A DNA stretch of 64,000 bases from Alitta virens. Lineage: Eukaryota > Annelida > Polychaeta > Phyllodocida > Nereididae. How positions within the stretch are numbered: the stretch's first letter is position 1; each line of letters begins with the position of its first letter. Positions 1 through 37,382 of this stretch are shown here, in pieces. The position numbers and the translations under genes were made by a program. The stretch spans positions 53,104,329 through 53,168,328 of the forward strand of contig OW028573.1 in NCBI GenBank assembly GCA_932294295.1, given 5' to 3'. The notes under the pieces are model-generated. The model had not been told where the DNA came from. It did not search any database and worked only from the letters and a program-made list of their open reading frames with translations.

Positions 1-292
1 TGCTGCCTTCTCAGACGAATATCACGCTTAATATTTGGTCTATTTTCAATCTGAAATTCTGTGTGAAATAAGTATGAACTCTTCTATAATTCAATATTTA
101 TTTGACGCAAATCGGATTAATATTAATGGAGCAGCAGCCGCCACCAGACAACCGCCTTCTCAGGAGAATATCTCGCTTAATATTTGGTCTATTTTCAATC
201 CGAAAACACCGATGGAGTCAGTATGAATTATACTACAATTCCGTTTTATTTGACGAAAATCGGACTAATATTAGGGGAGCAGCAGCCTTTTA
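1..292 (+). repeat. 149-bp unit, two tandem copies
   Basis: Two copies of a unit starting GCCTTCTCAG (positions 5 and 154) and ending near GGAGCAGCAGCC. Key words are GCTTAATATTTGGTCTATTT, a TATGAA segment and TTTGACG-AAATCGG. The same unit, single or double and in either orientation, recurs near 29.3, 30.5, 31.1, 32.4, 34.9, 35.6 and 36.9 kb. It always sits at the inner edge of a Harbinger subterminal array, beside a TATATAC-like box. Confidence 0.85.
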
Positions 293-298
293 AAATAT

Positions 299-505
299 AC
301 TCCTGGAAGCTGCGAGTTACTCCTACTACTCGCCGGCTTACTCCTACAACTCGGCGAGTAACCCGTAGAACCCGCCGAGTCACCCGTAGAACCCGCCGAG
401 TCACCCGTAAAACCCGCCGAGGCACCCATAGAACCCGCCGAGGCACCAGTAGAACCCGCCGAGGCACCCGCGGCAGCCGGCGGGTAACCCGGCGGGTGCT
501 GCCCC
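299..505 (+). repeat. Subterminal array of ~21-bp units
   Basis: Tandem units of the form ACCCGTAGAACCCGCCGAGTC, about nine copies with drift. The core GGGT-ACCC is palindromic. Equivalent arrays flank both ends of the complete Harbinger element, so these are probable binding sites for the element's own MADF/Myb-like protein (inference). Confidence 0.8.
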
Positions 506-617
506 GCCCCTTTTGGCTGCCAGAACCGGTCGCCAAACCGGTGGAAAGAGCTGTTACATAACTATTACGTAATACTACGGGTTCACTACGGCAAAACCGG
601 CCTGTGTGACAGTGGCT

Positions 618-738
618 TAAGTTGGATGGCTGTTTCAACCTTCGTCTCATTGCCATGGTCCCTGCCTGTCCTAATTAGCCCAACTGGTGCAGAAATACAG
701 GACGTAAAGCCCTAATCACACACACACACACACACACA
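618..738 (+). mobile_element. SINE body, interrupted by the upstream element
   Basis: The non-tRNA body of the window's main SINE, from TAAGTTGGATGGCTG to AAAGCCCTAATC and a (CA)n tail. The tRNA-like head is missing because the Harbinger-type element ending at 617 is inserted exactly at the TAA of the SINE's GAGCC-TAA-GTTGG junction. The head should therefore lie beyond the left edge of the window. Confidence 0.85.
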
Positions 739-2566: not shown

Positions 2567-3079
2567 TCAGAGTTTACTTGTATAGTCAAGGTTTTTACAT
2601 AGCCTCTGTAGGGCATTTATCTGCCGAGCTGCTTTTTTACAGATACATGGTTGTGATACATTCTCTTTGCTAAGGCAGATGGCCTGAAATTTAGATGGGT
2701 TGGCTTTCATGAAGTTCACATCAAACCATCTCATTGCTTGTTGAGAGGCTTGTTCTAATGTGCTTTTAATTATAGATGGGTTACTGTGTGAGAAAGACAG
2801 TGTGTTGTCATCAGCATAATTATATACATTGCATGTGCTTTGCAGATCATACAAAAAGTCATTTATAAAAATATTAAACAGAATAGTACCCATGAGAGAT
2901 CCCTGGGACACACTTGTTTTAAGGTTGAGCCATTCACGTTTAATGTTACCTAATTTTACAGCTTGTTTTCTATTCCTTAAGTAATTAAGTATAAGTTTAC
3001 ATGATTTGATTGATACACCACAGGCATTTAACTTTGCTATTAATAGTCCATGAGGTAAGCAATCAAAAGCCTTTGACAA
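2567..3079 (-). pseudogene. Reverse transcriptase, palm domain
   Basis: The frame holds SKAFDCLPHGLLIAKL (motif A, first catalytic Asp), VSQGSLMGTILFNIFIND (motif B) and YNYADDNTLSF (motif C, the catalytic DD pair). The catalytic residues survive even though the surrounding polyprotein is broken. The frame ends at a TGA just after NLDYTSKL; downstream sequence still resembles the family (IYESFVASNFVYCSTVYNSF). Confidence 0.88.
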
Positions 3080-3096
3080 ATCTATTAGAATGCATC

Positions 3097-3480
3097 CTAC
3101 ATGGTGGTTATTTCAAGTGCTTTTCTCCAATTTTCAACACATTTTACCAAGACATTGCTGCAACTATAGGATTTTCTATAAGCTGACAGATCTGTGGATA
3201 AGGAAGAGGAGATGAAACCGAGTAGTTGATCACACATGATCCCTTCAAATACTTTGGAAGTTGATGTTAATACACTTAGGGGCCTATAATTTTCTTTTGC
3301 TAATTGGTCAGATTTTTTATACAAAGGAGTTACTTCAGCTCTCTTTGTATAGTCAGGGTATTTATTTTGGCTAATGCTATTGTTAATGATTGGTTTGAGA
3401 GAGTGACTTATGTGTTCAGCTCCTAATTTGAGGAATTTTGGAGATATGTTATCAAATCCACTTGCTTTATTTGTCTGCAT
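3097..3480 (-). pseudogene. Reverse transcriptase, N-terminal part
   Basis: The 127-aa frame shows KASGFDNISPKFLK, AEVTPLYKKSD, NYRPLSVLTSTSKVFE and a fingers segment ending in SCSNVLVKCVENWRKAL. These are conserved early RT motifs. It continues into the palm block at 3079 after a short interruption. Confidence 0.85.
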
Positions 3481-3531
3481 AAGTTTAAGTTTCTTTTCAG
3501 TGATTGTTTGAGTTACTTGTTTGAAATCAAA

Positions 3532-4002
3532 TTATTGATCATAGCTGACCTTCTCTGTGATTGATTTCACACTTGGATGATCTTTATAATGGGCAATGAC
3601 CTGATCAGCTGACATATTGTTTATGGTATCAGATTCACAAAGGTCTTGGGTAACATCGATATAATATTCATTGAATACATTACATACATCGTTTGGGTTA
3701 CTGATTAAAGAGTTATTTTCATAGAGTGTTATGTTTTGGTTATTTGTTTTAACATTATTAGTCATGAAGGGTTTAATAGTTTCCCAGAAATTTTTTCCTT
3801 TATTGTTACCAGTATGAAATTTATCTTGAAAGTATTTTTGTATGGATGATTTCTTTAATTTATTAACTAAGTTTCTCTGTTTCTTGAACCTTTCCCAGTT
3901 TTGCTGGGTATTAATTCTGTGATATTTTCTTCGAAGTGCACCTTTGACATTGATAGCTTTTCTGAGATTGTCATTCATATAAGGCAGCTGTTTTAGGGTC
4001 AC
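3532..4002 (-). pseudogene. Linker region between endonuclease and RT
   Basis: A 156-aa frame rich in Lys, Asn and Gln, with YMNDNLRKAI, WERFKKQRN and KGKNFWETIKPF. This is the typical inter-domain region of Jockey/CR1-group polyproteins (the FW-TIKPF stretch is characteristic). It is separated from its neighbours by stop codons and short frame changes. Confidence 0.7.
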
Positions 4003-4041
4003 AATCTTTTGTTTCTTGGGCGCATTGTTATCTACAACATT

Positions 4042-4407
4042 TTAGAGTAAGCTATTATGAAACCAGATTTGATCATCGACATCACTGAATACTTGTGACA
4101 CATGAAAAGGGGCTTCAAGTAAGTCTTGTTTGTATGTTTCTTCTTCAAAAATCTTAAATGATCTGTAGTAGATCAGTTTTGGCTCACTAGTTGGGTATTT
4201 GATTTTGGTTGCTGTGCTAATATAATTATAAAAATCGCTTATGCCTAGTGGTAGGTTTATGGGTGCAGATAATGATTTTGAACAATTTGTTAGTATGACA
4301 TCTATTAAAGAAGGATTGTTTGTACTTTTAAAACAGGTTGGGCCTTTCACAATTTGCTTGAGGTCATATACATCACATGCTTGTGTTAACTGATTTGGAT
4401 TTTGCAT
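4042..4407 (-). pseudogene. Endonuclease C-terminal part of the retrotransposon
   Basis: The 121-aa frame contains IVKGPTCFKS, PSLIDVILTN and GISDFYNYI. These match the late motifs of the apurinic-endonuclease domain in this retrotransposon group, where the last is usually SDH(N) or SDFHN; here the histidine position reads Y. The catalytic N-terminal motifs are absent. The start codon of the open frame is not meaningful because the domain is truncated upstream. Confidence 0.75.
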
Positions 4408-4424
4408 AAAATAACGATATCCTC

Positions 4425-4616
4425 TTATTTTTGCAATAAAACTCCATTGGGAATAACATCGAAAGCTTTGCTTAGATGCATTAGGAGTGCTCCTACATAT
4501 TTACCTTCATCCAAAGCTAGCTTTATGTCTTCAACTGCTTTGTTTAGTACACTAAGAGTGCCCAGAGGTAGTATCATATATTTACAGTATAGTAATATCA
4601 TATTTAATAAGTACAA
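4425..4616 (-). pseudogene. Second RT fragment joined out of order
   Basis: The frame contains ALDEGKYVGALLMHLSKAFD and VIPNGVLLQK, a motif A segment from a related reverse transcriptase. It lies 5' of the endonuclease piece of the neighbouring element, which is the wrong order for one element, so it comes from a different copy. The join is near 4425-4440. Confidence 0.75.
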
Positions 4617-5031: not shown

Positions 5032-5344
5032 GTAGTGCTCTGCGCTTCCAACTGCTGAGTCCCGGGTTTGATTCCCGGTCGAGCCTAAGTTGGATGGCTG
5101 TTTCATCCTTCGTCTCATTGCCATGGTCTCTGCCTGTCCTAATTAGCCCAACTGGTGCAGAAATACAGGACGTAAAGCCCTAATCACCCACCCACCCCAC
5201 CCGGGTTCGATTCCCGATCGAGCCTAAGTTGGATGGTTGTTTCATCCTTCGTCTCATTGCCATGGTCTCTGCCTGTCTTAATTAGCCCAACTGGTGCAGA
5301 AATACAGGATGTAGAGCCCTAATCACCCACCCACCCCACCCACC
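5032..5344 (+). mobile_element. Two partial SINE copies in tandem
   Basis: The first copy (5032-5198) starts inside the tRNA-like head at GTAGTGCTCTGCGC and runs through the body to CACCCACCCACCC. The second (5199-5344) starts at the B box (GGGTTCGATTCCCG) and repeats the whole body and a CACCCACC tail. The truncated second head suggests unequal exchange or template switching at the tail/B-box boundary. Confidence 0.88.
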
Positions 5345-6704: not shown

Positions 6705-8889
6705 GTGAGTAATTATACCATACGGGCATGTTCAACTGTATATTATTAATAATTCATCAATTAAAATAATGTACAAGGCGTGCCTAACAAGAGGGAGAAC
6801 ACATGCACTCAGTCATTGGAAGAGACGGCATGTGGTGTTAGAAGGCAACACGTATATTATGAATATACTCAGGAAATTGATATATGATTTAGCATCAATG
6901 TATTTTACGTTACTGTATTATAAACTGGAGACCTGGAACTTTCGGATCCAATTGTATATTGTAATTTATATCAATATTAAGACAACCCCGTTCATAGTCA
7001 ATTATATAACATAACATTTGGTAGTGCAGAGTATTATTAGTTTGATTAATCCACTGGTCCTTTCCTTGCAGCTTTTAATGCAGAACGTCAGGATAACTTC
7101 TGTCATTCCATCACTCGTTATAATGAACAATTCCAGGCCATATCTTATTACTGTAACTTCATTGATGCGCCTTTGACCGGCAGAGAAGGTTAGTGCATTA
7201 TACCTGAACCATGCTGCTTAAGCCAAAGTAATCAAATATAAAGAATGCTTATAAGAAAATGATTAATATCAGACTGACTACAGTTCAGTTCATTTTTATT
7301 TTACTAATCATCACATGTTGACAAAAAAAAATGAATATGTATGATTGTGATTATGAGAGGGAGTTGTGTATTCGAAGACACTGTTGTATCGCTTATGGAA
7401 TACACAACCTTGGTCTTAGGAACACAGGCAGATATTTACTAGGATTAGTTACTTGTAAGTTTCACAAAAAGATACCACACCAGTTGCATTATGTTTATAT
7501 TTCTGGATATTCATGATATGCCACAGCACCATGCATATAACATGCCACGTCGGCTCTTTAGTCGACTTCAGACATCATTGATCCGACGTTGACCCGATCT
7601 TGCATGCTATTTTTGCAGTGATGCCAATATATACTTAAGATACTGTATATATTTTTTCAGGAGACGTACAGTTAGATGGATATAATTTGGAGCAGATCCA
7701 AGTGGCCATAAGACATGGAGACCGCGCTGGAATACACATTTTGCCCAATTACGTAAGACCCCAGTTGTCATGTCAATTCAGCAACTACCCTCATCTATTC
7801 CCTGTCACTCCTGGCCTTGACAAGTTGCTGGAGACAATGAAGCACAATGAGGACCTGAAAGGCTCCCTCCCGACTTCTTTGCAAAGTTTTAGTCTTTACC
7901 CCTTCCTAGATTTATGCACTCCTGGGCAACTGACTCCAACAGGCATGGCCCAACATGTCAAGAATGGTGCTTTCCTCCAAGACAGGTACAAAAAGTGGGG
8001 TCTGTTCAACAGCCAAAGTAGCAGCAGTCATAAAACTGTCAAATTAGTCAGCACGAGTTATGAGAGGACGTTCCAGAGTGGCCTAGCTTTTCTATATGGA
8101 CTTCAATCCGAATTAAATCTATCTAAAATTGAAGTACAGGCTTCTTTGAATAGTAATATGTGTTCTGAGGAATCAAAACGTTCCAGAATTCCGTGTGTTT
8201 GTGAGGCTGTGCAGAGTTATGATGGCTACACCTCTCAGACATATGGCCTAACATTTGCTGATGTGGTGAAGGAAGAAGCACCTTACAACCAGATTGCAGT
8301 GGCTTTTAATGTAGAAAAAGATAAAATACCCAGCACACAAAGCCTCATTGATATTGGGATGATCCACATGTGTCACATTTTGCCTTTACCCGGAAGCCCT
8401 GGCAAATGTATGGAAATAAGCTCTTTGAAACATGTCGTAGATGAAGCTAATGGACATGGTAGGGCTCACTCAAAACATGGTATTTTTCCATCTATTGCTA
8501 AGTCACGCATGCTTCCCTTAATTGACCAAATTTATACTAGCATGGCAGCTTTTAGCAAGGGTGAAGCTGCTCAAAAAGTTGTTTTGTATTCTGGTCATGA
8601 CACTACTCTGGACCCTTTACTTGTTGCACTAAATATCAGCACTGGGGAATGGCCCATGTATGCATCAAGGCTTGTAATAGAATTGTACAGTAATAAAGAA
8701 GCTACCGCTGAAAACAAATCATATTTCTTTAGAATATTGTACAATGGTGAAGACCGGACTTCAGACGCTATCAATTGCCAAAAATCAATCAGACATGGAC
8801 TTTGTCCTTTGAAGGTACTGGATGACTTTCTGGAAATGTCCAGTAAATCTTGTGATAACCCTCAAGAAACTGTGATGGAAAAAGTGTAG
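6626..8889 (+). CDS. PXYLP1: 2-phosphoxylose phosphatase 1 (PXYLP1-like)
   Basis: Three coding exons (6626-6704, 7072-7188, 7661-8889) join in frame through two phase-1 GT-AG introns to give 474 aa, close to the 480 aa of the vertebrate protein. Residues 10-26 form a hydrophobic signal anchor after a short basic tail, as in Golgi type II membrane enzymes. The histidine acid phosphatase signature RHGDR is at 83-87 (nucleophile H84), and the C-terminal HD pair is H378-D379 in SGHDTTL. Family-specific stretches include YYCNFID, LTPTGMAQHVKNG, FQSGLAFLYGL and FFRILYNGEDRT. The known enzyme removes the 2-phosphate from xylose in the proteoglycan linker, allowing glycosaminoglycan chains to extend. 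The motif reads RHGDRAG, without the RxP proline of classic acid phosphatases. The reading frame is undamaged, so the gene is probably functional. Confidence 0.92.
7072..7188 (+). CDS. PXYLP1: PXYLP1-like coding exon 2
   Basis: The acceptor is TTTCCTTGCAG at 7061-7071 and the donor is GAAG|GTTAGT. The exon reads from AFNAERQDNFCH to APLTGRE and includes the YYCNF segment that matches the start of the conserved lumenal region. Intron 2 (7189-7660) shows nothing else of note. Confidence 0.88.
7661..8889 (+). CDS. PXYLP1: PXYLP1-like coding exon 3 (catalytic domain)
   Basis: The acceptor is ATTTTTTCAG at 7651-7660. The exon encodes residues 66-474, the complete histidine phosphatase domain, without interruption. 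The stop is TAG at 8887-8889. Residues upstream of the RHGDR motif (GDVQLDGYNLEQIQVAI) are needed for the domain's first strand and are read only if the exon is joined at 7661. Confidence 0.93.
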
Positions 8890-19398: not shown

Positions 19399-19572
19399 CA
19401 CGGCTTCCTATATACATTACAAATTTTCACATAAGATGTTCTGTCTTTTTCAAGGTAGACCAAGCTAGACTAAACTACACCAGGAATACACTTTGCTATT
19501 GATATTTTAAATATGTGTCTATTCTATGGCAAATAATTGAATGAGAATTGCTGGAAATTTGTTAGAACATAA
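15490..19572. other. Noncoding stretch with old repeats
   Basis: No coding exon found. Diverged repeats are present: 15850-15990 (partner 38280-38420), 16135-16220 (partner 24100-24180), 16965-17090 (partner 24395-24545) and 18841-18975 (partner 13990-14160). A small CpG-bearing patch lies at 16560-16700 (TCACATGACGGTGGCACCG). An (AT)n run is at about 19365-19397. Confidence 0.5.
15850..15990 (+). repeat. Dispersed repeat (partner 38280-38420)
   Basis: Both copies contain GGGTGGGGT, CAGCATAGACACC, GGCACCTCCAAT and AACGTC-CATGC. They end with CTTAAC-like words, about 140 bp in the same orientation. A SINE or other short interspersed element is likely. Confidence 0.65.
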
Positions 19573-19630
19573 AGCCCCTGTCACACGGGCCGGTTGTGCC
19601 GTAGTGAACCCGTAGTATTACGTAATAGTT
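19573..19630 (+). repeat. Left terminal inverted repeat (58 bp)
   Basis: Identical to the reverse complement of 23500-23557. It includes a palindromic TATTACGTAATA block. Perfect identity over 58 bp indicates recent insertion. Confidence 0.95.
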
Positions 19631-19689
19631 ATGTAACGGCTCTTTCCGCCTGTTTGGCGACAGTTTCTGGCAGCAAAAAGGGGCGGGGC

Positions 19690-19925
19690 AGCACCCGTCT
19701 GGTTACCCACCGGGTTCTACGGGTTACCCGCCGGGTTCTACGGGTTACCCACCGGGTTCTACGGGTTACCCGCCGGGTTACCCGCCGGCTTTCACGGGTT
19801 ACTGCCGGGTACGGCAAATTAGTTGACGGCTTCCAGGGGTAGCCCGGCGGCTTCCACGGGTTGCCCGGCGGCTTTCACGGGTTGCCCGGCGGCTTCTACG
19901 GGTTAACCCGGCGGCTATTCCGGCG
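19690..19925 (+). repeat. Left (T1) subterminal array
   Basis: About nine units of 20-21 bp with consensus close to CCGGGTTCTACGGGTTACCCG. They grade into CGGCTTCCACGGGTTGCC forms toward the promoter. Probable protein binding sites, and possibly part of transposase promoter control because they sit directly upstream of the TATA box. Confidence 0.85.
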
Positions 19926-19941
19926 GAATTTGCCAAAAATG

Positions 19942-19949
19942 TATAAATA
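19942..19949 (+). promoter_or_regulatory. TATA box of the transposase gene
   Basis: TATAAATA, 57 bases upstream of the ATG at 20007, at the inner edge of the subterminal array. Confidence 0.75.
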
Positions 19950-20006
19950 GGGGCTGCATCTGTTGTTCTCCATCATTCTGTCTCCGGCTGCTGAAGAGGA
20001 AAGACC

Positions 20007-21314
20007 ATGTATCAACCCCAACGAAATAGAGCCTTGCTACTACTAGCTGCTCAGGCCAATTATACACTTATTTTACAACTTGCTTGTATGGAAGCACTAG
20101 CTGAGGAGGAGGAGAGGAAGAGAGAAGAAGAAAGAGAACTGGCAGCCAGGAGGAGGAGGAGGTTTTGGGTGAAGCCTTGGCTGTTGAGAAGACCGCAGAT
20201 GGGATATTATGATCGTCTACTGAGAGAACTGTTCCACGAAGACACCGCAAGTTATACCAACTTTATGAGAATGGAACCAGCCATTTTCCGAGAGATCGTT
20301 GGCAAAATTGATCATAGGATTAGAAAACAAAACAGCTGTATGAGGAAAGCTTTGGACCCAGGACACAGACTTGCCATCACCCTCCGCTATTTGGCAACTG
20401 GAAACAGCTACAAGTCCCTCATGTATGGCTTTAGAGTGGCCCGCAACACCATCAGCTTGATAATTCGAGAAGTCTGTGAAGCCATAATTGCAGAGTATTC
20501 CGACGAACTCCTGACCTGCCCCTCAACTCCAGAAGAGTGGAGAAAAGTCGCTGAACTATTCTTTTCGAGATGGAACTTTCCTCATTGTGTTGGAGCCATT
20601 GATGGAAAGCATGTGGCCATCAGATGTCCTCCCAAAGGTGGTTCCGTGTACTACAACTACAAGGGATACCACTCCATTGTACTCATGGCTCTTGTGGATG
20701 CTGACTACAAGTTCCTTAATGTAGACTGTGGAGCTAACGGAGCTGGATCGGACGGAGGAGTATTTAGCACGACAGTCCTGAGGGAAGCACTTGAAGAAGG
20801 GACCCTTGGGTTACCGCCACCTGAACCAATCGTTCCTGGTGAAAGACCTCTTCCCTACTTCATTGTCGGAGATGATGCCTTTCCTTTGAAAACCTGGCTG
20901 ATGAAGCCACTGCCCCTAAGAAACATGACCAAGGAGCAGAGGATATACAATTACCAACTCTCCCGGGCAAGAAGAATTGTGGAAAATGCATTTGGGATCC
21001 TTTCAGCAAGGTTCAGGTGTCTCCTGACTACCATGCCACAGAGGACCAAGACAGTGGAATCCATAGTCCTTGCATGCTGCTGCCTCCACAATCTGATGTG
21101 AATAAGGTATCCAACTACCCAGAACACCATGGTGGACCAGGAAGATCCAGACACACATGTAATCACCCCAGGAACTTGGAGGGCAGCTGGAGAAATTGAT
21201 GAAATGCCACCACCCACTAGAGGCCATTCAATAGCCAAGAGTCAACGGCAGTACCTGGTAGACTATGTTAATTCAGAAGAAGGAAGTGTGCCATGGCAAG
21301 ATGACATGGTATAA
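20007..21314 (+). pseudogene. Harbinger DDE transposase with one in-frame stop
   Basis: The frame runs 364 codons to a TGA at 21099-21101, then continues in the same frame for 70 codons (IRYPTTQNTMVDQE to WQDDMV) to TAA at 21312. The domain order fits PIF/Harbinger (DDE_Tnp_4). There is a charged N-terminus (E/R-rich 33-52), then a helix-turn-helix-like region at about 121-160 (LRYLATGNSYKSL). The catalytic domain follows, with GAIDGKHV (D199), GAGSDGGVF (D249), VGDDAFPL (D289/D290) and RRIVENAFG (E326). The usual ending of the core domain, LHNL(L/M)R, is broken exactly at the R codon: CGA to TGA is a CpG transition. AATAAA follows at 21313-21318. The enzyme would cut and paste the element at TWA sites. 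Truncated protein, readthrough or simple inactivity are all possible; a pseudogene is most likely. Confidence 0.88.
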
Positions 21315-21440
21315 TAAAGAAACCACAAAACAACCCCGGCCTTTTTCAAGGCCACCAAATCCTCCCAAAAGAGCAGACCATGTACACTTCTTGTGTAATA
21401 AAAAAAAATTTCCTGTCTGACCCACACAAAATATTTTATT

Positions 21441-21776
21441 GGTTCAGAAGTGCCGTAGTTGTTGGTTGTTCAGAAATGCCGTATTTGTTGTTTTTTTTGG
21501 TTTAATAAAGTTTTCATATTTCCTTAGGAAACAAAGTTGCAATTAACTTAAGTGTGGTGGTGTCAGGGTTACTAATATTTAGCAAAGAAGATTTTTTTGG
21601 TTCAGAAGTGCCGTAGTTGTTTCTTGTTCAGAAGTGCCTTACTTTTTTTTTTGTTCAGAAATGCCGTATTTTTTCTCTTGTTCAGAAGTGCCATAGTTGT
21701 TTCTTGTTCAGAAGTGCCTTACTTTTTTTTTTGTTCAGAAATGCCGTATTTTTTCTCTTGTTCAGAAGTGCCGTCG
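21441..21776. repeat. Tandem repeat between the convergent genes
   Basis: Monomers with core TTCAGAARTGCCGTA spaced 26-28 bp, about nine in all. From 21601 a higher-order 80-bp period is almost perfect for two copies. It contains the C-terminal codons of the minus-strand gene. A minus-strand AATAAA is at 21435-21440 and a plus-strand one at about 21503, so the block may carry 3' end signals for both genes. Confidence 0.88.
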
Positions 21777-22567
21777 AATGTGTCCGTGTCCATCATCAGG
21801 CACTCCGCAACGATGTAATCTCCCATCGCCCGGATTCTCCTTTCGTGGAGATCTGCTGGATGACGAGGAGGAGGAGGAGGAGCAGCAGCAGCCATTTGAT
21901 GAAAAGATGCCTGCAGGGCACCTGTTGAGCTCCTGGCCAATTCCATGAGTTTGTCCATTCTTCTTTGCTGATGGGGTTCCTCCTGGGGTTCCTGTCTACG
22001 TTTCTTGTAGGGGCCGCCCTTGGAACGCTTGGCAGGAGCTGGGGGGATATCCATGGAAATATCCGGGTCATCCGAAATCTCCAGGGGCCCGAATTCTTCT
22101 GCAGCACTGCTGCTGTTGTCTTTTGCAAGTCTTTTTGAAAGAACATTGCTCCCTTGCCGACTGGGAATTCTAGTGATATGGTCAACTAGAAATCCGAAGT
22201 TGGCACATATCCACTGTTCTTTCTCTGTGGGATTTCTCTTGGCAGTTCCGGATGGCCCCTGCCTCATAAGTTTTCCGGCACTAGTCCTGATGGATTCCAG
22301 CCAGGTCCTGAGTTGCAAACCGGTGCAGGAGACACTCAACTTGGCAGCCATTGCATTAAGGAGGGCCGTCTTCTTCCCGGAGTCCTTATAATCCGATAGG
22401 GTCCGGTCATAAAATATCGGGTGGTCCCGGTACCAATCCGCAACTTCCTGTTCATCCTGGTGTGGCAGGAAGAGCTTATCCTGCTTCTTCCGAGGCTCAT
22501 TTCCTCTACCTGAGAAAACAGGTGATGCAGGACCTGCAGAGCGAGCAGGTGAAGTGTCAGGAGAAGT

Positions 22568-22600
<33 letters not shown>

Positions 22601-22915
22601 ACGAAGACGCAAAAGAGGAGCAGCAGTGGACTTCTGGGACTCATCCGTGCTGGCAGCATCTGAGGATGACCTCGTGGCAATTTTTCGTCTCTTCTCAGGT
22701 CCCTTGGCAGGTACAGTCCGCTTGGCAGGTACAGTCCGCTTGGCAGGTGCAGACTTCTTCGCCATCTTCTCCTTCACAGGAAGAGCACTCTTCTTCTTTG
22801 ATGAAGCAGAAGATACTTCATCATCGCTGGCTTGAAGTGAAGAAAGCGATTTTTCTGTGTCCTCAGCAGGAACTGCAGTTGTCCTGGTCCTAGGTGCAGT
22901 AATCTTCATCGGCAT
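21719..22915 (-). CDS. MADF/Myb-SANT-like DNA-binding protein of Harbinger
   Basis: An intact 398-aa frame. Residues 1-150 are basic and low-complexity, including a short tandem of AKRTVP and an AP-repeat at about 106-116. Residues ~157-248 look like a MADF (Myb/SANT-like in Adf-1) domain: VADWYRDHPIFYDRTLSDYK, AAKLSVSCTGLQLRTWLESI, then the W/F-containing QWICANFGFLVDHI. A basic region with KRSKGGPYKKRRQEP (about 300) follows. Harbinger elements typically encode such a protein, which binds the subterminal DNA and helps bring the transposase to the nucleus. The start is the first ATG downstream of a TATA box. The last ~20 residues (GTSEQEKKYGISEQKKK) are read from the intergenic tandem repeat, so the C-terminus may vary among copies. 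Confidence 0.85.
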
Positions 22916-23000
22916 GATAAAAAATATTTTCTGGAGCGGTGTATTCTTCGTCTTCTCAATTTGGTAGCAAGATGCTGAATGATCTGATAGCCACTGGTCA

Positions 23001-23010
23001 ATCTTTATAT
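23001..23010 (-). promoter_or_regulatory. TATA box of the MADF gene
   Basis: The reverse strand reads AGTATATAAAGAT about 90 bases upstream of the ATG. It mirrors the arrangement on the transposase side. Confidence 0.65.
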
Positions 23011-23114
23011 ACTGCCTGGATAACGTACCCCGCTGTGATTACATAATAAACCCAGCTCATTGCGTCGCATTGGATCCACACAGGATGACACTGGGCAAAC
23101 ACGATTGCTTGCTA

Positions 23115-23345
23115 TGCAAGCCGGCGGGTTAACCGTGGAAGCCGCCGGGCTAACCGTCAAAGCCGGCGGGTTAACCGTCAAAGCCGGCGGGTTAACCGTA
23201 GAACCCCTCAACAAGCCGCCGGCTTTACTAAAGGGTGAATTTAGGGACGGTTAATTCGCGGGTTCTACGGGTCACCCGCCGGCTTCTACGGGTCACCCGC
23301 CAGCTTGTACGGGTCACCCGCCGGCTTCCACGGTTTTTTTTTTCA
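23115..23345 (+). repeat. Right (T2) subterminal array
   Basis: Units such as GCCGGCGGGTTAACCGTCAA and, further out, CTACGGGTCACCCGCCGGCT. Cores GGGTTAACC and GGGTCACCC are near-palindromic. About nine units in all. Confidence 0.85.
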
Positions 23346-23360
23346 CCCGTGAGATTTCTA

Positions 23361-23390
23361 CGGTTGTGCCATGCTTGCATGGCACAACCG
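23361..23390. repeat. 30-bp perfect hairpin in the T2 end
   Basis: Arms CGGTTGTGCCATGC and GCATGGCACAACCG with a 2-base centre (TT), centred 182 bases from the right tip. The outer arm repeats the CCGGTTGTGCC word of the terminal repeat itself. Equivalent hairpins occupy the same place in the related elements. Confidence 0.93.
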
Positions 23391-23499
23391 GCTACTGGGG
23401 CCGGGTTTCGCGGCTTGGCCAAGGGTCCCACGGGTGCTTGCCGGGTATCCCCGGGTATCCACGGGTGGCCGTATTGGGGCCGCCGGCTTGGATTTCCGC

Positions 23500-23557
23500 A
23501 ACTATTACGTAATACTACGGGTTCACTACGGCACAACCGGCCCGTGTGACAGGGGCT
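23500..23557 (-). repeat. Right terminal inverted repeat (58 bp)
   Basis: Perfect inverted copy of 19573-19630, ending GTGACAGGGGCT before TAA. Confidence 0.95.
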
Positions 23558-23560
23558 TAA

Positions 23561-28795: not shown

Positions 28796-28848
28796 TGAAC
28801 TTATTGACGTGTTAACCACCAAGGGGTCATTTACGTCAGGATTGCTAA

Positions 28849-28910
28849 AGCCCTATTCCCACATAGCCGGATTTGCCGTAGTGAACCCGTAGTATGATGT
28901 AACGGTTACG
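28849..28910 (+). repeat. T2-type terminal repeat, left
   Basis: Aligns with the complete element's tip through GCCGG-TTTGCCGTAGTGAACC. It then runs CGTAGTATGATGTAACGGTT, which is the sister-family form. Confidence 0.8.
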
Positions 28911-29269
28911 TAACACGCTTCTCGGGCCCAATCCGTACTAAACCCTACGACTACTCCTCGCTGTCGGGCGATACCCGGCAGGTAACTCCTGGGACCCGTG
29001 GCCAATCCGGGAGTTTTGGAGCCGGCAGCCGAGTATGCCGCGCTGCATGGCACACCCGTCGGATTCGCACAGATTTTCAAAAATCCGTCATGAATCTGTC
29101 GAACTCGGTGAGTCACCGGTCGAACCCGCCAGCTTACCCGTTGAAGTCGATGGATTAATTGTTGCTAATTTCACTCGTATTACACCCGGCGGGTTGTTCA
29201 GGGGTGCGAGGAGTAACCCGGCGGGTACCAGGAGTGACTCGGCGGGTAACTCGGCGGGTAACTCGCCAA

Positions 29270-29365
29270 ATAATTATGAATTATAGTAGAGTTCATACTT
29301 ATTCCACACAGATTTTCAGATTGAAAATAGACCAAATATTCGTCTGAGAAGGCAGGTAGTCTGGC
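29270..29365 (-). repeat. Partial 149-bp unit
   Basis: Minus-strand copy containing AAAATAGACCAAATATTCGTC and CTGAGAAGGCAGGTAG, next to the left T2 array. Confidence 0.75.
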
Positions 29366-29477
29366 GGCGGCAAGGTGGTGTGGTCAATATTTTTGACCAT
29401 GATATATACATTGTTTGGATGAGCTTTATTGCAATTCATTTCTACTCATTCTGCCAACTGCCATGACTGTTATGTCA

Positions 29478-29760
29478 ATTGCTATTAGCATTTTGAATGA
29501 TACAAAGAATGGGTGTAGAGAATACAGCAAATGCTCAATACATGTGTCAATTGCCTAATTGCCTAAATTGGGGTTATTTGACCTGTCATTTCATGGTTTG
29601 TTCAAAGATGACACAGTAATTGCTATTAGCATTTTGAATGATACAAAGAATGGGTGTAGAGAATACAGCAAATGCTCAAAACATGTGTCAATTGCCTAAT
29701 TGTCAAATTGGGGTTCTTTTACCTGTCATTTCATGGTTTGTTCAAAGATGACACAGTAAT
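29478..29760 (+). repeat. 141-bp tandem duplication
   Basis: Two copies starting ATTGCTATTAGCATTTTGAA at 29478 and 29619, nearly identical, in the body of the left half-element. Confidence 0.92.
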
Positions 29761-30417
29761 ATGACATTGTCTTGATTGTTATTCACAATTACAAAAAGAT
29801 GTAATTGCTTTCATTAATTAAAAGCAATGTATTTTATTGTAATTACCAGGCAATGATTATATTTGTATATTGGTATTTTTTTTTTATACATGTGAACATT
29901 CTTATCTTTTTGTGTTAATTTGAATCTTATTGTGATATTATGGTCAGTATTTGTGTATATTTTTGTAAAATTTAAATCTAATATTAATATTGTAATTAGT
30001 ATTTGTGATTTGATCTGTGATTTTATTTGCTATCTTTAATGTACTTATATATATTATTTCGCCTTAATACTGAATGTTTAAGAGCAGGACTCTGTCCAGA
30101 AAACATCAAATTGTGGCAACTGGGACCTTGAACGTTAAGCCGTATATTATGTATAAAATAATGAGAACTTGTATATCATAATTTTGTAGATGTAGTTTAA
30201 GATAGACGTAGTGAGTAGATATGTGACATATGTATCTTTTCTGACATGAAAAAGTGTCAATAAAAGCTATATATATATTATAAATGAATGGCAGTATAAA
30301 GAAGGTGATACACTTTGCAAAATTCTTGAAAGAATATGCAGATAGATAGATAGATGATAGTTTATTCTTATTCTTCATATTCTTCTTATATAAAAATATA
30401 CTGCTGGGGGTTGTATA

Positions 30418-30735
30418 TACTTTTTAAAAGGCTGCTGCTCCCCTAATATTAGTTCGATTTTCTTCATATAAAAATTGAATTGTAGTATAGTTCATACTTA
30501 TTCCACACGTTATTTCAGATCGAAAATAGACCAAATATATAAGCGAGATATTCGTCTGAGAAGGCAGTTGTCTGGCGGCGGCTGCTGCTACCTTAATATT
30601 AGTCTGATTTTTCGTCAAATAAAATTGAATTGTAATTGAGTTCATACTTATTCCACACGTCCTTTTAGATCGAAAATAGACCAAATATTAGGCGAGATAT
30701 TCGTCTGAGAATGCAGGTAGGCTGGCGGCGGCCTA
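30418..30735 (-). repeat. TATA-like box and two 149-bp units
   Basis: On the minus strand two units are followed by CTGCTGCTCCCCTAATATTA. At the edge, GTTGTATATACTTTTTAAAA (plus strand, about 30410-30428) is the recurrent TATA-like box. This set has the same position relative to the arrays as the transposase promoter in the complete element. Confidence 0.8.
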
Positions 30736-30738
30736 TCA

Positions 30739-31090
30739 TTCGACGGGTGACTCTACGGGTGACTCGCCAACTTTTCCGGCGCTGTCGTAGCTACCTTGAA
30801 TAACCCGGCGAGTCTATCGTACAACCCTGCGAGTCACTCCTACAACTCGGCGAGTCACTCCTACAACTCGGCAAGTCACCCGCCGCGTCAACCGAGTCAC
30901 CTGCCGAGTCACCCACCGAGTCACCCGCCGAGTCACCCATAGAACCCTTTTTGGCGGCGTGTTCTATGGGTGACTCGGCGGGTTCTACGGGTCACTCGGC
31001 GAGTTCTACGGGTCACTAGAAGTAAGCCGACGGGTAGTAGGAGTAACTTGACGGCTTCCAGGAGTAATCCGCAGACTTCCATGGGTGACT
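30739..31090. repeat. Head-to-head T1 subterminal arrays
   Basis: Left part: units such as CTACAACTCGGCGAGTCACT. Right part: GGTGACTCGGCGGGTTCTAC. They meet in an inverted arrangement at about 30945-30965. The T1 word CCCTTTTTGGCGGC is the last trace of the lost tips. Confidence 0.85.
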
Positions 31091-31099
31091 CGCCGACTG

Positions 31100-32300
31100 C
31101 TACCAGCGTCCGATTTTCGTTAAACAAAGATTGAATTGCAGTATAGTTTATACTGATTCCATACGTGTTTTCGGATCGAAAATATACCAAATATTAAGCG
31201 AGTTATTCGTCTGAGAAGGTAGCTAGGTTGGCGGAGGCAAACAGTGGTGCTCTCGCAGACGTCCGTGCCGGGACTGGCTGCTGCTCCCCTAATATTATTC
31301 TAATATTGATATTGTAATTAGTATTTGTGATTTGATCTGTGATTTTATTTGCTATCTTTATGTACTTATATAGACCAAATATTAAGCTAGATATTCTATA
31401 TTATATAATAAGCAATAAAGACTGAATTATTCAGGGAAATGTGTAGAATTTATATGATAGTTAAGGTGGGGAAAATTAATGGAATATACTAGGCACAAAC
31501 AAGAATATTCTTGTTAATAAAGTTAGTAATACCTCATAGAGTATAAATATGTAGATATGTAGATAAACAGATAGTTATAAGATCTACACCTTATAATATG
31601 TAACTATCAATAATTCATTGATTCGTAATCAATAACAAATGAAAATAAAACAATGTTTGTTGCCTTGTTGCCAATAAAATTCTGACTTGATAAAGATGTC
31701 TATGGAGCTATAACAACTATCTATAGATAGATATATACTCTAGTTTAGAGTAATCATTTTAGATATTTATTTCATTTTATATAAATTATCAATATTTCGT
31801 TCTTGTTGTTGTTTCTGAATATAATCCAACTGGAATTAAAATTGATATTGCATGTTCCATCCATGATCAAAACAATCTCCCTCTTTAATATGCATAATAA
31901 ACAGGAATCAGTTGAAATTCAGAATTTCAATTAATGCTTGTGATCAATGATGAAAAAGCATGACTTACCCCATTCTTTGTATTATTCAAAATGCTAATAG
32001 CAATTGACATAATGGTCAATTCAGAATTTCAATTCATGCTTGTGATCAATGATTTCAATTCATGCTTGTGATCAATGATGAAAAAGCATGATTTACCCCA
32101 TTCTTTGTATTATTCAAAATGCTAATAGCAATTGACATAACGGTCAAGGCAGATTGCTATTACATATATAGGTTAATTGACTTTACAAAACCAAAGGAAA
32201 AGTCCTTCCCATTGGCCATTTGGCAGAATGAGTAGAAATTAATTGCAATAAAGCTCATCCAAACAATGTATATATCCTGGTCAAAAATATTGACCACACC
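31100..32300 (-). repeat. Element body, inverted copy of 35985-37010
   Basis: Extended near-identity with the reverse complement of 35985-37010. This includes AGACGTCCGTGCCGGGACTG, CAAGAATATTCTTGTTAATA and ATGCATAATAAACAGGAATC. An internal short duplication at about 32015-32090 (TTTCAATTCATGCTTGTGAT) is specific to this copy. Confidence 0.88.
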
Positions 32301-32344
32301 ATTCAAGTCATGACCATACACAGAGCACCTTGCCACCGCCAGAG

Positions 32345-32640
32345 AACTGCATTCTCAGACGAATATCTCGCTTAATATTTGGTCTATTTTCAATCTGAAA
32401 ATCTGCGTGGAATTAGTATGAACTCTACTATAATTCAATATTTATTTGACGAAAATCGGATTAATATTAATGGAGCAGCAGCCGCCGCCAGACAACTGCC
32501 TTCTCAGACGAATATCTCGCTTAATATTTGGTCTATTTTCAATCCGAAAACACTTATGGAATCAGTATGAACTATACTACAATTCATTCTTATTTGACGA
32601 AAATCGGCGTAATATTAGGGGAGCAGCAGCCTTTTAAAGT
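32345..32640 (+). repeat. Two 149-bp units, plus orientation
   Basis: Starts CATTCTCAGACGAATATCTC and CTTCTCAGACGAATATCTCG for the two units. Almost identical to the pair at 1-292. Confidence 0.9.
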
Positions 32641-32679
32641 ATATACAACCCTCCACCCTGCCTACGCTGACGCTGGTAG

Positions 32680-32900
32680 CAGTCGGCGAGTTACTCCTAC
32701 AACTCGACGGGTTACTCCTGGAAGCCGTCGAGTTACTCCTTCTACTCGTCGAGTTACTTGTACTAGCCCGGAACAAGCCATCGTGGTCACTACGCCTAAA
32801 ATTAGCGACCAAGTTGTCGAGTGACTCGACGGCCTCCAGGGATGACTCGACAACTTTGAGGGTTAATCCGCCGAGTTGTAGGAGTAACTGTTTACTTTTG
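32680..32900 (+). repeat. Right T2 subterminal array of the fused element
   Basis: Units such as GGCGAGTTACTCCTACAACT and CGACGGGTTACTCCTGGAAG, ending near 32890. AT-richer than the arrays of the complete element. Confidence 0.8.
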
Positions 32901-32923
32901 GACACCTGCGATTTTGCCACGGG

Positions 32924-32945
32924 AATTCAATGCACGCATTGAATT
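32924..32945. repeat. Hairpin of the right T2 end
   Basis: Arms AATTCAATGC and GCATTGAATT with a 2-base centre, 195 bases from the tip. Same place and design as the hairpin of the complete element but a different arm sequence. Confidence 0.88.
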
Positions 32946-33132
32946 TCCGGCTACCGGCGCCGGGTATCCAAGCTTGGCCACGAGTCCCAGGACTGACTCG
33001 ACGGGTATCGCCGGATATCCACGGGTATCCAGGGGTAGCCTTCGGGTTGGAGCCGAGAATCGCGTTGCGTAACCGTTACGTCATACTACGGCTTCCCTAC
33101 GGCAAAACCGGGTATGTGAGAGGGGGGCTTTA

Positions 33133-34421: not shown

Positions 34422-35119
34422 AGCCTAGGTCTTACATAGCCAGTTTTGCCGTCGTGAAGCCGTAGTATTATGTAACGGTTATGCAACAGCTTTTTTCGCC
34501 GGGTTGGCGACGAATTCTGGCGGCAAAAAGGGTTCTACGGATGACTCGACAGGTTCTACGGATGACTTGGTGGGTTCTACGGGTGACTCGGTGGGTTTTA
34601 CGGGTGACTCGGTGGGTTACGGCCAATTAGTGGACGAATTCCAGGAGAGACTCGACGAATTCCAGGGGTTACTCGACGGGTTCTACGAGTTATTTGACAG
34701 GTTCTACGAGTAACTCGACGGCTTCTACGATTTTAACTTGACGTGTACGTCGTCTGGTCTAATTTTAAAATATACCATGGCAAAGTCGGCGAGTCACCTG
34801 TAGATCCCGGCGAGTCAGTCGTCGAATGATATTTTGTACATGCAGCAGTGGAGGGGGGTTGTATATACTGTAAAAGGGTGCTGCTCCCCTAATATTAGTC
34901 CGATTTTGGTCAAATAAAGACTGAATTGTAGTACAGTTAATTCAGAACGAAAATAGACCAAATATTAGGCGATATATTCGTCTGAGAAGGCAGGTAGGCG
35001 GCAAACACTGGTGCTCCCTCAAGCGTCCGCGCCCGGACTGTATTAATACAGGCAGAGCTAAGCGCTTCTTTAAAAGGCTGCTGCTCCTCTAATAAAACAG
35101 GCTATGTGAAATAGGGGCT
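34422..35119 (+). mobile_element. Harbinger-type element, T1 left end, deleted right end (698 bp)
   Basis: Preceded by TAA (34419-34421). The left tip AGCCTAGGTCTTACATAGCC leads into the T1 features (TTTTTTCGCCGGGTTGGCGA, then GGCGGCAAAAAGGGTTCTAC). An array, a TATATAC-like box near 34862 and a 149-bp unit follow. The right end keeps only ~25 bases of tip (AAACAGGCTATGTGAAATAG and GGGCT), joined directly to the inner unit. It is followed by TAA at 35120-35122. Confidence 0.82.
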
Positions 35120-35309
35120 TAAAGCCCAGGTCTCACATAGCCGGTTTTGCCGTAGTGAACCCGTAATATTACATAACGGTGACGCAACACACTTCCCGGC
35201 TCCAACCCGATGGGTACCCGTGGATACCCGGTGATACCCGGTGATACCCGTCGAGTGACTCCTGGGACTCGTGGCCAAGCCAGGAGTTTCGGGCCTGGTA
35301 GCCTGGTAT

Positions 35310-35325
35310 GCCATGCTTGCATGGC
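35310..35325. repeat. Hairpin of the T2 end
   Basis: GCCATGC-TT-GCATGGC, sharing its core with the complete element's hairpin. Centred 195 bases from the T2 tip. Confidence 0.88.
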
Positions 35326-35339
35326 TCACCCGTGGCAAA

Positions 35340-35545
35340 CTCCCAGGTGTCCCAAAAGTCGGCGGATTACCCGTGGAAGTCAGCGGATTACCCGTCGAAG
35401 TCGGCGAGTTATCCGTCCCTAATTTTACCCGTAGTAAAGCCGGCGGTTTACTAGGAATAAGCTGACGGGTAGTAGGAGTTACTCGACGGCTTCCAGGAGT
35501 AATCCACCGAGTTGTAGGAGTAACTCGCCGACTGCTACCAGTGTC
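35340..35545 (+). repeat. T2 subterminal array
   Basis: Units such as AGTCGGCGGATTACCCGTGG and GGAGTAACTCGCCGACTGCT. Confidence 0.8.
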
Positions 35546-35741
35546 AGCATCAGCGTAGGCAGGAAGGGGGGTTGTATATAATTTTAAAGGCTGCTGCTAC
35601 CCTAATATTAGTCTGATTTTCGTCAAATAAGACTGAATTGTAGTATAATTCATACTGATTCTATACATGTTTTCGGATCGAAAATAGACCAAATATTAAG
35701 CAAGATATTCTATATTATATAATAAGCATATAAATCTATCT

Positions 35742-35752
35742 GTCTCTCTAAA

Positions 35753-35787
<35 letters not shown>

Positions 35788-35808
35788 CATATCTATCTAT
35801 CTAACTAT
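35742..35808 (+). repeat. (TCTA)n microsatellite
   Basis: About 15 tetranucleotide units with a few interruptions, inside the element body. Confidence 0.92.
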
Positions 35809-35984
35809 CGAACAGCGATTAATGTTGGGGGCGTTCTTGACAAGAATATTCTTGTTTTTGCCCAGTATACCTTATTAATTTTCCTCACCTTATCTATTAT
35901 ATACTGCCGTGCTGCAGGATGTACAAAGGCTGCTGAACTGATGCTTTTCTCTTTGGCATTTTCAAAGTGTACAGTCAAATAGTT

Positions 35985-37010
35985 TTGACCATCATATATA
36001 CAATGTTTGGATGAGCTTTATTGCAATTCATTTCTACTCATTCTGCCAACTGGCCAATGGGAAGGACTTTTTTCTTGGGTTTTGTAAAAGTCAATTAACC
36101 TATATATGTAATAGCAATCTGCCGTGACCGTTATGTCAATTGCTTTTAGCATTTTGAATGATACAAAGAATGGGGTAAATCATGCTTTTTCATCATTGAT
36201 CACAAGCATTAATTGAAATTCTGAATTTCAACTGATTCCTGTTTATTATGCATATTAAAAAAGGAGATTGTCTATAATTTGTTTTGATCATGGATGGAAC
36301 ATGCAATATCAATTTAAATTCCAGTTGGATTATTTTCAGAAACAACAAGAACGAAATATTAATAATTTATATAAAATGAATTAAATATCTAAAATGATTA
36401 CTCTAACTGGAGTATATCTATCTATAGATAGTTTCTATCATTGTTTTATTTTAATTTTTTATTGATTACAATTCATTGAATTATTGATAGTAACGTATTA
36501 TTAGGTGAAGATCTTATAACTATCTGTCTATCTACATATCTACATATCTATACTCTATGAGGTATTACTAACTTTATTAACAAGAATATTCTTGTTTGTG
36601 CCTAGTATACTCCATTAATATTCCCCACCTTAACTATTATATAAATTCTACACATTTCCCTGAATAATTCAGTCTTTATTGCTTATTATATAATATAGAA
36701 TATCTAGCTTAATATTTGGTCTATATAAGTACATAAAGATAGCAAATAAAATCACAGATCAAATCACAAATACTAATTACAATATCAATATTAGAATAAT
36801 ATTAGGGGAGCAGCAGCCAGTCCCGGCACGGACGTCTGCGAGAGCACCACTGTTTGCCTCCGCCAACCTAGCTACCTTCTCAGACGAATAACTCGCTTAA
36901 TATTTGGTATATTTTCGATCCGAAAACACGTATGGAATCAGTATGAACTATACTACAATTCAATTCTAATTGACAAAAATCGGATATATATTAGGAGAGC
37001 AGCAGCCTTT
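35985..37010 (+). repeat. Element body, inverted partner of 31100-32300
   Basis: See the partner entry. The high similarity dates the two elements as close relatives. An extra GACAAGAATATTCTTGTTTTT stretch also occurs at about 35840-35860. Confidence 0.88.
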
Positions 37011-37059
37011 TAAAGTATATACAACTCCCTGCCTACACTGATGCTGACGCTGGTAGCAG

Positions 37060-37275
37060 TCGGCAAGTCACCCGTGGAAGTCGGCGGATTACTCTTACTA
37101 CCCGTCGGCTTACTCCTAGTGACCCGTAGAACCTGCCGAGTGACCCGTAGAACCCGCCGAGTGACCCGTAGAACCCGCCGAGTCACCTGTAGAACCCGCC
37201 GAGTCACCCATAGAACCCGCTGAGTCACCCGTATATTCCGTCGATTCCCCCGTCGAGTCCCCCGTAGAACCCTTT
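37060..37275 (+). repeat. T1 subterminal array
   Basis: Units GACCCGTAGAACCCGCCGAG, about eight, very regular at 21 bp. Confidence 0.88.
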
Positions 37276-37382
37276 TTGCCACCAGAATCCGTCGCCAACC
37301 CAGTAAAAAAAGCTGTTGCATAACCGTTATGTAATACTACGGTTCACTACGGCCAAACCGGCTATGTGAGACCTAGGCTTAA

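Follow-up and report, generated by a model that had tools for sequence, protein, structure and literature searches.

Two ends that share a tip and differ beyond it may have different tasks in transposition, or they may differ by history only. This locus, a transposon of 3,985 bp within the window (the whole 64-kb stretch of DNA analyzed), raises that question. We consider it probable that the element belongs to a recently active two-gene PIF/Harbinger family with distinct cis modules, T1 and T2, which would be loaded with its MADF protein and be productive as a T1-plus-T2 pair. The structural variant of a known superfamily is real; the function proposed for it is no more than plausible.

Structure of the element and probable activity of its family

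A sequence-only reading had described a complete, near-intact, recent Harbinger insertion with 58-bp perfect terminal repeats, TAA on both sides, and both expected genes. The repeats (TIRs) and target-site copies (TSDs) proved exact, and both genes are in place (Table 1). The transposase matches PF13359 (E = 5.2e-31) and PF04827 (6e-10), as IS5-like DDE transposases do, and four of the relatives listed for it bear the name putative nuclease HARBI1. Across 20 aligned sequences, D199 and E326 are invariant and D289 is nearly so; we read these residues as the putative catalytic triad. The nearest related transposases of other species stand at 97% and 80% identity. The second gene gives a modest match to the MADF domain (PF10545; E = 2.4e-6; 28.2 bits against a cut-off of 22) and occurs, entire or fragmented, in four further elements (L009, L011, L012, and L013). 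By its transposase, second gene, TWA TSD, and TIRs, the element is a PIF/Harbinger transposon. It is also complete, but “near-intact” needs a qualifier because codon 365 of the transposase is an in-frame TGA (21099 to 21101).

TIR identity is 56 to 58 of 58 positions in 13/13 family elements, and the 58-bp length exceeds the 14 to 50 bp quoted for PIF/Harbinger TIRs in the source excerpt. The TSDs of scorable T1-T2 elements are TAA/TAA or TTA/TTA in 25 of 31 cases, TAA/TTA swaps in four, and other in two, a count made without L027, whose tip lies beyond the fetched stretch (the TAA in L047 would match). Allowing up to three mismatches, the TIR core has seven matches in the window versus none in 100 shuffles. 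Between the genes, the core GTGCCGTAGT stands at 21608, inside the tandem array, which encodes the end of the MADF frame, and at 21450, outside it.

The transposon family is abundant in its genome and probably recently active. Most transposase matches listed in the same genome are 95 to 99% identical, and 82 of the 99 listed (some partial) have no internal stop. Support for the claim of a recent insertion thus comes from the family and not from the matching TIRs. No relatives of the transposase were found in the viral contig collection (single protein and alignment) or in the genome contig collection (alignment), and the TIR core had no matches in either; the MADF protein search returned one relative, with 97% identity over 41%. 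A PXYLP1-like exon had only distant matches, the named ones reaching 31% identity at most.

Table 1. Features of the host element and related elements in the window
Feature	Positions	Strand	Remarks
Whole PIF/Harbinger element	19573-23557		3985 bp; exact boundaries
Target-site copy, left	19570-19572		TAA
TIR, T1 side	19573-19630	+	58 bp, identical to T2-side TIR
T1-specific stretch	19631-19700	+	TTGGCGACAG at 19654-19663, CAAAAAGGG at 19674-19682
T1 outer block	19701-19788	+	Forward 21-bp units only; T1 position 139 holds the first one scored
T1 inner block	19827-19916	+	21-bp units, all forward; homology to non-coding relatives stops about here
TATAAAT	19942-19948	+	Candidate transposase promoter (T1 position 370)
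Transposase gene	20007-21314	+	DDE_Tnp_4; 435 codons + stop
Tandem array, 27/53/80 bp	21592-21774		Between convergent genes
MADF-domain protein gene	22915-21719	-	398 codons + stop
TATATAA	23005-23011	-	Candidate MADF-gene promoter (T2 position 547)
T2 inner block	23118-23199	-	21-bp units, forward (direction: T2 tip inward)
T2 outer block	23259-23333	-	21-bp units, reversed
T2 hairpin	23361-23390	-	Two perfect 14-bp arms, 2-nt apex
T2-specific stretch	23420-23499	-	~10-bp GGATACCC units
TIR, T2 side	23500-23557	-
Target-site copy, right	23558-23560		TAA
E1, non-coding relative	1-617	-	T1 end at 617; opposite end beyond window
A, two relatives fused	28849-33129		Outer ends both T2 (28849, 33129); target-site copies TAA/TTA
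B	34422-35119	+	T1 end at 34422; opposite end shrunk to 26-bp tip
C, complete non-coding relative	35123-37379	-	T2 (35123) to T1 (37379); TAA/TAA

Two end modules

Beyond the TIR, all eight full ends in the window fall into one of two types: T1, a module of ~340 bp on the transposase side, and T2, ~440 bp on the MADF side. The motifs earlier ascribed to each, and the hairpin ascribed to T2, were located, and the same two types do recur in relatives, as had been proposed. Scores over inner ends (positions 66 to 230), including those of E1, A, B, and C, are 58 to 163 within a type and 14 to 21 between types, with a shuffle maximum of 29. C has its TIR and TSD in common with the autonomous element, as Tourist-type MITEs do, and no transposase or MADF frame appears among its listed open frames. 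Typical MITEs are smaller than its 2,257 bp. Older T2 ends of the C type have at least 40 matches.

Pairing of the ends in the genome

In 38 stretches of the same genome, covering all 39 other scored T1 matches, there were 30 T1-T2 pairs, no T1-T1 elements, and eight T1 ends without a partner inside the stretch. With exact tip patterns, contig C1 gave 28 T1-T2, no T1-T1, and no T2-T2 elements, and contig C2, up to 21.3 Mb, gave six T1-T2 and one apparent T1-T1. The latter (15517887, L035) was rejected: the exact pattern had missed an intervening T2, which pairs with the second T1 (TAA/TAA) and leaves the first as an orphan. Every complete single element that was resolved pairs T1 with T2. The ends are thus structurally asymmetric, as claimed, and the family does not consist mostly of symmetric copies.

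Fifteen T2 ends on C1, L051 and L052 among them, have no exact T1 partner; one, at 59168118, has an open transposase gene 3 to 4.5 kb away, in the direction expected. Two T2...T2 structures were rejected as T2-T2 elements. In A, the target-site copies disagree, the halves differ, and remnants of T1 face each other head to head around 30947 to 30955. L051 has TAA on both sides and is a chimera by its two levels of identity to L015 (81 to 89% over positions 1 to 1336 and 98.5% to the T2 end over positions 1334 to 1532). In L031, a second T1 lies just outside a T2-T1 pair, and either pairing gives TTA/TTA.

The pairing suggests that the transposition machinery may distinguish a left from a right end. 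It may also be mere inheritance, and pairing alone is no proof of a requirement because a cut-and-paste copy carries the two ends of its parent.

The 21-bp arrays and the T2 hairpin

A new finding is that both modules hold arrays of a single 21-bp unit whose polarity is fixed. Scored with a matrix derived from one T1 end only, and within T1 positions 100 to 430, the T1 units are all forward in 35/35 elements (four with a single unit), and the first lies at position 139 in 31 of them. In T2, scored within positions 215 to 560, units are reversed outside and forward inside in 33/33 ends having both blocks. These counts leave out single matches nearer the tip (T2 ~89 to 148), forward or reversed, and a reversed match in B_L, at position 368; B_L does not belong to the 35 elements. 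Applied to A_R, an older end, the matrix from one T1 end finds one reversed and two forward units and a stray forward match at 89.

A 12-bp piece of the TIR (GCCGGTTGTGCC) recurs in the outer arm of the T2 hairpin and its flank. T2 features are indeed shared by other full-length copies: in the first set of 13 elements, 12 have the hairpin. The hairpin covaries in older relatives; in four sequences, five pairs changed on both sides, versus 1.7 in shuffles. Arm deletions occur in 5 of 33 T2 ends (C and L049 not included; those of L029 and L040 may be one shared event), and the idea of the hairpin as a strict requirement is unsupported in view of them; the deleted hairpin of L044 still makes 12/14 pairs. 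Three T1-T2 elements with matching TSDs (L031, L035, and L040) have only one scored T1 unit left. Neither the T1 array nor the hairpin is demonstrably needed, because T1-T2 elements with matching TSDs have lost most of the one or part of the other. These losses may have followed insertion.

Proposed mechanism and alternatives

We propose that the 21-bp units are binding sites of the MADF protein, which would thereby sit on one DNA face, as 21 bp is two helical turns. It would load T1 as a one-way array and T2 as two opposed blocks and recruit the transposase to the tips, where the TIRs are identical; T1 plus T2 would be the productive pair because the two loaded ends differ. Non-coding copies would retain both modules because these are recognized in trans. 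A precedent is Harbinger3_DR, a zebrafish PIF/Harbinger element whose Myb-like protein, according to the source excerpt, has a 9-bp motif in the subterminal DNA as its binding site and also interacts with the DDE transposase (PMC9710019).

Several observations count against this proposal: 8 of 38 stretches have a partnerless T1, T2...T2 structures exist (A and L051), mPing, also a PIF/Harbinger element, has ends that act similarly in the portion of the report available (PMC9921582), and T1-T2 pairing is the outcome expected from descent of one T1-T2 founder. The units seen in A_R, the partial losses of T1 units and hairpin, and the modest PF10545 match also weigh against it. If TIRs suffice, the ends may differ by history, and all copies would be T1-T2 because the founder was. 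We regard such neutral inheritance as unlikely, although the single-unit elements and mPing speak for it. The arrays of C, A, and B have diverged widely, yet end type, polarity, and hairpin symmetry are kept; gene-less non-coding elements preserve both modules; and L049, at 367 bp the one stripped-down element among those read, is single-copy by its junction.

The arrays and hairpin could instead be by-products of slippage and template switching, regular by mutation rather than by selection. The number of units differs between copies, hairpin arms can correct each other, which also gives changes on both sides, and substitutions per site per copy are few in the hairpin (0.0061, versus 0.0136 at positions 60 to 179 and 0.0077 in the TIR). 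Slippage by itself, however, leaves the constant reverse-forward switch of T2 unexplained, and the hairpin is retained although it is a deletion hotspot (five of seven deletions fall within 30 of 173 positions, with a deletion of 1 bp and, in three copies, the loss of a 10-bp unit excluded). We consider this origin improbable. That the subterminal arrays regulate the two genes, as promoters or repressor sites, with ends that differ because the genes do, is very improbable: each module lies directly upstream of a TATA box and gene, and dual use is possible, but non-coding elements keep the modules, and their homology to the host element ends at T1 333 to 344 and T2 419 to 440 (host-element positions), before the TATA boxes. 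In L015 and L028, the two non-autonomous elements checked, the first 700 bp of T1 contain no TATAAAT; the motif lies far deeper in them, at T2 703 and 714.

The MADF-loading proposal has a stricter form, which we find doubtful. The ends would be obligately left and right, and the 21-bp MADF sites would act as a code of direction that, together with an extruded T2 hairpin, licenses only T1-T2 synapsis. In vivo, this hairpin would be opened or cut, with deletions in the arms and breakpoints at the apex as the result. The earlier functional reading is supported in its structural asymmetry, whereas “orientation-specific complex assembly” goes beyond what pairing proves.

Comparison with known systems

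The PIF/Harbinger transposition mechanism is described, in the text available, as lacking thorough characterization (PMC9710019). End choice and pairing are little characterized, and the present family bears on both. With many open transposase copies, a unit whose direction can be read, and natural deletion variants, the end-pairing question is directly testable.

Unlike this family, Harbinger3_DR has no two end types or polarity-coded 21-bp arrays in the excerpted description (PMC9710019). The rice mPing/Ping/Pong elements share TTA/TAA target sites and non-autonomous partners moved in trans, but have 15-bp TIRs and ends reported with similar roles, and mPing and mPong have no internal sequence in common that promotes transposition (PMC9921582, PMC4561436). 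MtPH-A6-4 of Medicago truncatula, also PIF/Harbinger, carries subterminal tandem repeats in variable number, in some elements at both ends in opposite orientation; its unit is 60 bp, occurs variably at one or both ends, and is described, in the part available, with no fixed two-module layout, polarity switch, or hairpin (PMC2213677). Galileo (P superfamily, Foldback-like) likewise has long ends with multiple protein-binding sites, but as long TIRs instead of differing ends, according to the accessible text (PMC3688188). In Hermes (hAT), DNA-binding domains treat the left and right ends differently, an asymmetry that, as the excerpt has it, comes from the transposase's own BED domains and was shown experimentally (PMC10368747). 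Although it belongs to another superfamily and is known here from its sequence, the present family shares with this Hermes-like class two structurally different ends that are paired, the chimeras A and L051 excepted.

The element and its family

By every feature testable here, the main element is a PIF/Harbinger transposon. Between its convergent genes sits a tandem array that includes the TIR (terminal inverted repeat) core GTGCCGTAGT and encodes the final residues of the MADF frame. Codon 365 of its transposase is TGA, at which the closest relatives are open in an alignment with 19 relatives hand-chosen from the 120 listed; over the 365 residues searched, identity to the nearest of these listed database relatives is 96%. 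G000, the genome to which the window belongs (671 Mb, 23 contigs), holds at least 99 transposase matches (97 scored of 2573 candidates). Among the 99 listed, 82 lack an internal stop, some being partial, and most are 95-98% identical to the window copy. Together with its own TGA, these figures point to a young, large family in which the window copy is a member with slight damage.

Coordinates of the main element and other features of the window
Feature	Position	Strand	Remarks
Main Harbinger element	19573-23557		TAA flanking each side; TIRs 58 bp, identical
Transposase gene	20007-21314	+	convergent with MADF gene
MADF protein gene	22915-21719	-	convergent with transposase gene
Tandem array	21440-21774		27/53/80 bp
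Element A	28849-33129		non-coding relative
Element C	35123-37379		non-coding relative
Internal repeat of non-coding relatives	30430-32770, 35444-37147		common unit of ~150 bp, both orientations; forms long inverted repeats, e.g., 31130-31655 versus 36439-36964 (97%)
139-bp repeat	5061-5341		two tandem copies
E1 (non-coding relative), right flank	618-720		from TAA onward, 98% copy of 102 bp of the 139-bp repeat
Retroelement-like broken frames	2570-4500	-	resemble non-LTR type; RVT_1 4.9e-18 in piece 2570-3112
Phosphatase frame	7639-8886	+	long open frame; PF00328 2.6e-29

Two end types in the window

Nine window ends were oriented from the tip inward, eight of them full and one (the right end of the non-coding relative B) reduced to a 26-bp tip. 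The full ends, compared over positions 66-230, fall into transposase-side type T1 (19573, 617, 34422, and 37379) and MADF-side type T2 (23557, 28849, 33129, and 35123), with scores of 58-163 within types and 14-21 between them; the highest shuffle scored 29. Element C is T2-T1 with target-site copies TAA/TAA. Both outer ends of element A are T2, and we read it as a fusion of two elements because its right part is collinear with reversed C, its left part terminates in a T1-like array, T1 remnants mark a head-to-head junction of the halves near 30947-30955, and the flanking target-site copies are unequal (TAA at 28846-28848, TTA at 33130-33132); the remnants and the mismatch argue against a true T2-T2 element.

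Pairing of ends across the genome

With a 128-bp T1 query, 40 matches were scored of 1953 candidates in G000, and all 39 other matches were read in stretches of 5.9-8.4 kb (L009-L046). A convergent T1-T2 pair was present in 30 of 38 stretches and a T1-T1 element in none; L031 and L035 carry an additional T1. In eight stretches (L010, L014, L038, and L017-L021) T1 had no partner within the stretch. Five of these, L017-L021 on contig C3, are probably one event, since L017-L020 are at least 99.8% alike over the 6.8 kb compared, flanks included, and L021 has the same immediate flank; their T1 fragment seems to ride inside another young, large repeat.

Scanning G000 for exact tip patterns gave 589 T1 and 385 T2 occurrences, and none of the reversed control patterns. 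When adjacent, convergent ends <8 kb apart were counted as pairs, contig C1, which both lists span entirely (79 T1, 43 T2), yielded 28 T1-T2, no T1-T1, and no T2-T2 pairs, leaving 51 T1 and 15 T2 ends partnerless by exact patterns. On contig C2 up to 21.3 Mb (21 T1, 10 T2; 13 and 4 partnerless by exact patterns), there were six T1-T2 pairs plus a single apparent T1-T1 at L035, where the extra T1 lies beside a T1-T2 pair. Two of the 15 partnerless C1 T2 ends were read: L052 is T2-T1, and L051, T2...T2 with TAA/TAA, is a chimera in which an old T2-led segment adjoins a young T2 segment of 199 bp, not a genuine T2-T2 element. If the 28 C1 pairs were drawn randomly from their own ends, symmetric pairs would be absent with a probability of 3.5e-8, which is not a test of function because copies inherit both ends.

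Polarity of the 21-bp units

A single 21-bp unit, CGGSTTCTACGGGTYACCCGC or a close variant, is common to both modules. A matrix made from only seven units of the main element's T1 end was scanned over the remaining window ends and then over 35 T1-T2 elements (32 of the G000/window set plus L049, L050, and L052). T1 units all run in the same direction in 35/35 elements (L031, L035, L040, and L049 have a single scored unit each), and the first is at T1 position 139, counted from the tip, in 31. In T2, a reversed block lies outside and a forward block inside in all 33 elements having both; L049 has no T2 units and L050 the outer block only. The step from the last reversed to the first forward unit is 62 in 24 elements, 72 in 5, and 37-83 in 4. 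Unit numbers vary (T1, 1-10; T2, 5-10 in the 33 elements with both blocks) while direction does not, which indicates that the arrays expand and contract by whole units. In older relatives, with weakly similar units, the pattern is clear at the left end of A and both ends of C; the left end of B has the T1 pattern plus one reversed match at 368, and the right end of A has one reversed and two forward units.

Module borders and the T2 hairpin

Measured from the tip, homology of the main element extends as far as T1 333 and T2 440 with L015 and L026, T2 419 and (in pieces) T1 342 with L028, and T1 344 with B. The homology shared with non-coding elements thus stops short of the TATA boxes (T1 370, T2 547). 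In five of five gene-bearing copies examined, each module has a TATA box at its inner edge; T1 of L015 and L028 lacks one, and their T2 has one only far deeper (703 and 714). This argues for a role of the modules in transposition rather than gene transcription, although they may serve both.

The T2 hairpin has 14-bp arms, with 12 bp of the TIR repeated in the outer arm and its flank. In the four window T2 ends, 87.5% of pairs form, and pairs altered on both sides number 5 versus 1.7 in shuffles (2/500 as high; four sequences only); such changes could also come from arm-on-arm correction. Across the 35 elements, all 14 pairs form in 25 and at least 11 in 30. The hairpin is a deletion hotspot: among 33 T2 ends, 5/7 deletions (≥2 bp, excluding 10-bp unit loss) fall inside its 30 bp (p ~0.002, assuming that positions 60-232 are equally liable and events independent, which is doubtful for L029 and L040). 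Two more junctions (L049 and L051) begin at its apex. We take this clustering, with the apex junctions, as a sign that the hairpin folds out at times.

Target sites and neighboring sequences

A middle-base swap between target-site copies (TAA versus TTA) was seen in 4/31 scorable T1-T2 elements (L012, L023, L030, and L044), as well as in fused A and in L052, and other mismatches in 2/31. The swaps could arise from inter-copy exchange or from a mispaired overhang during insertion. On C1 (12367036-12376400) there is a tandem of two T2-T1 elements, both 4681 bp long, whose tips are exactly 3 bp apart and whose transposases score equally.

Elsewhere in the window, the 139-bp repeat, which by eye we take to be partly tRNA-like, had no Rfam match. 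The histidine-phosphatase frame resembles 2-phosphoxylose phosphatase 1, with named relatives at 31% or less, and is probably a host gene.

Comparison with known systems

The superfamily is known; what appears new is the two fixed end modules and their polarity code. We limit novelty to these because the element has the PIF/Harbinger features, variable subterminal tandem repeats are already published for this superfamily (PMC2213677), and our search, with Repbase and subscription papers outside it, found no paper describing, for PIF/Harbinger, either a polarity code or two end modules of fixed type. Beyond the anatomy, pairing, polarity, and module borders established here, the MADF protein may sit on the 21-bp units, T1 and T2 would be loaded differently with it, and T1 would preferentially pair with T2. 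In published accounts, a 9-bp subterminal motif of Harbinger3_DR is bound by a Myb-like protein that interacts with the transposase (PMC9710019); excision of mPing is thought to use staggered breaks at the target-site copy (PMC4561436), and both mPing ends have a similar role (PMC9921582); in Hermes, BED domains bind the left end and none bind the right (PMC10368747).
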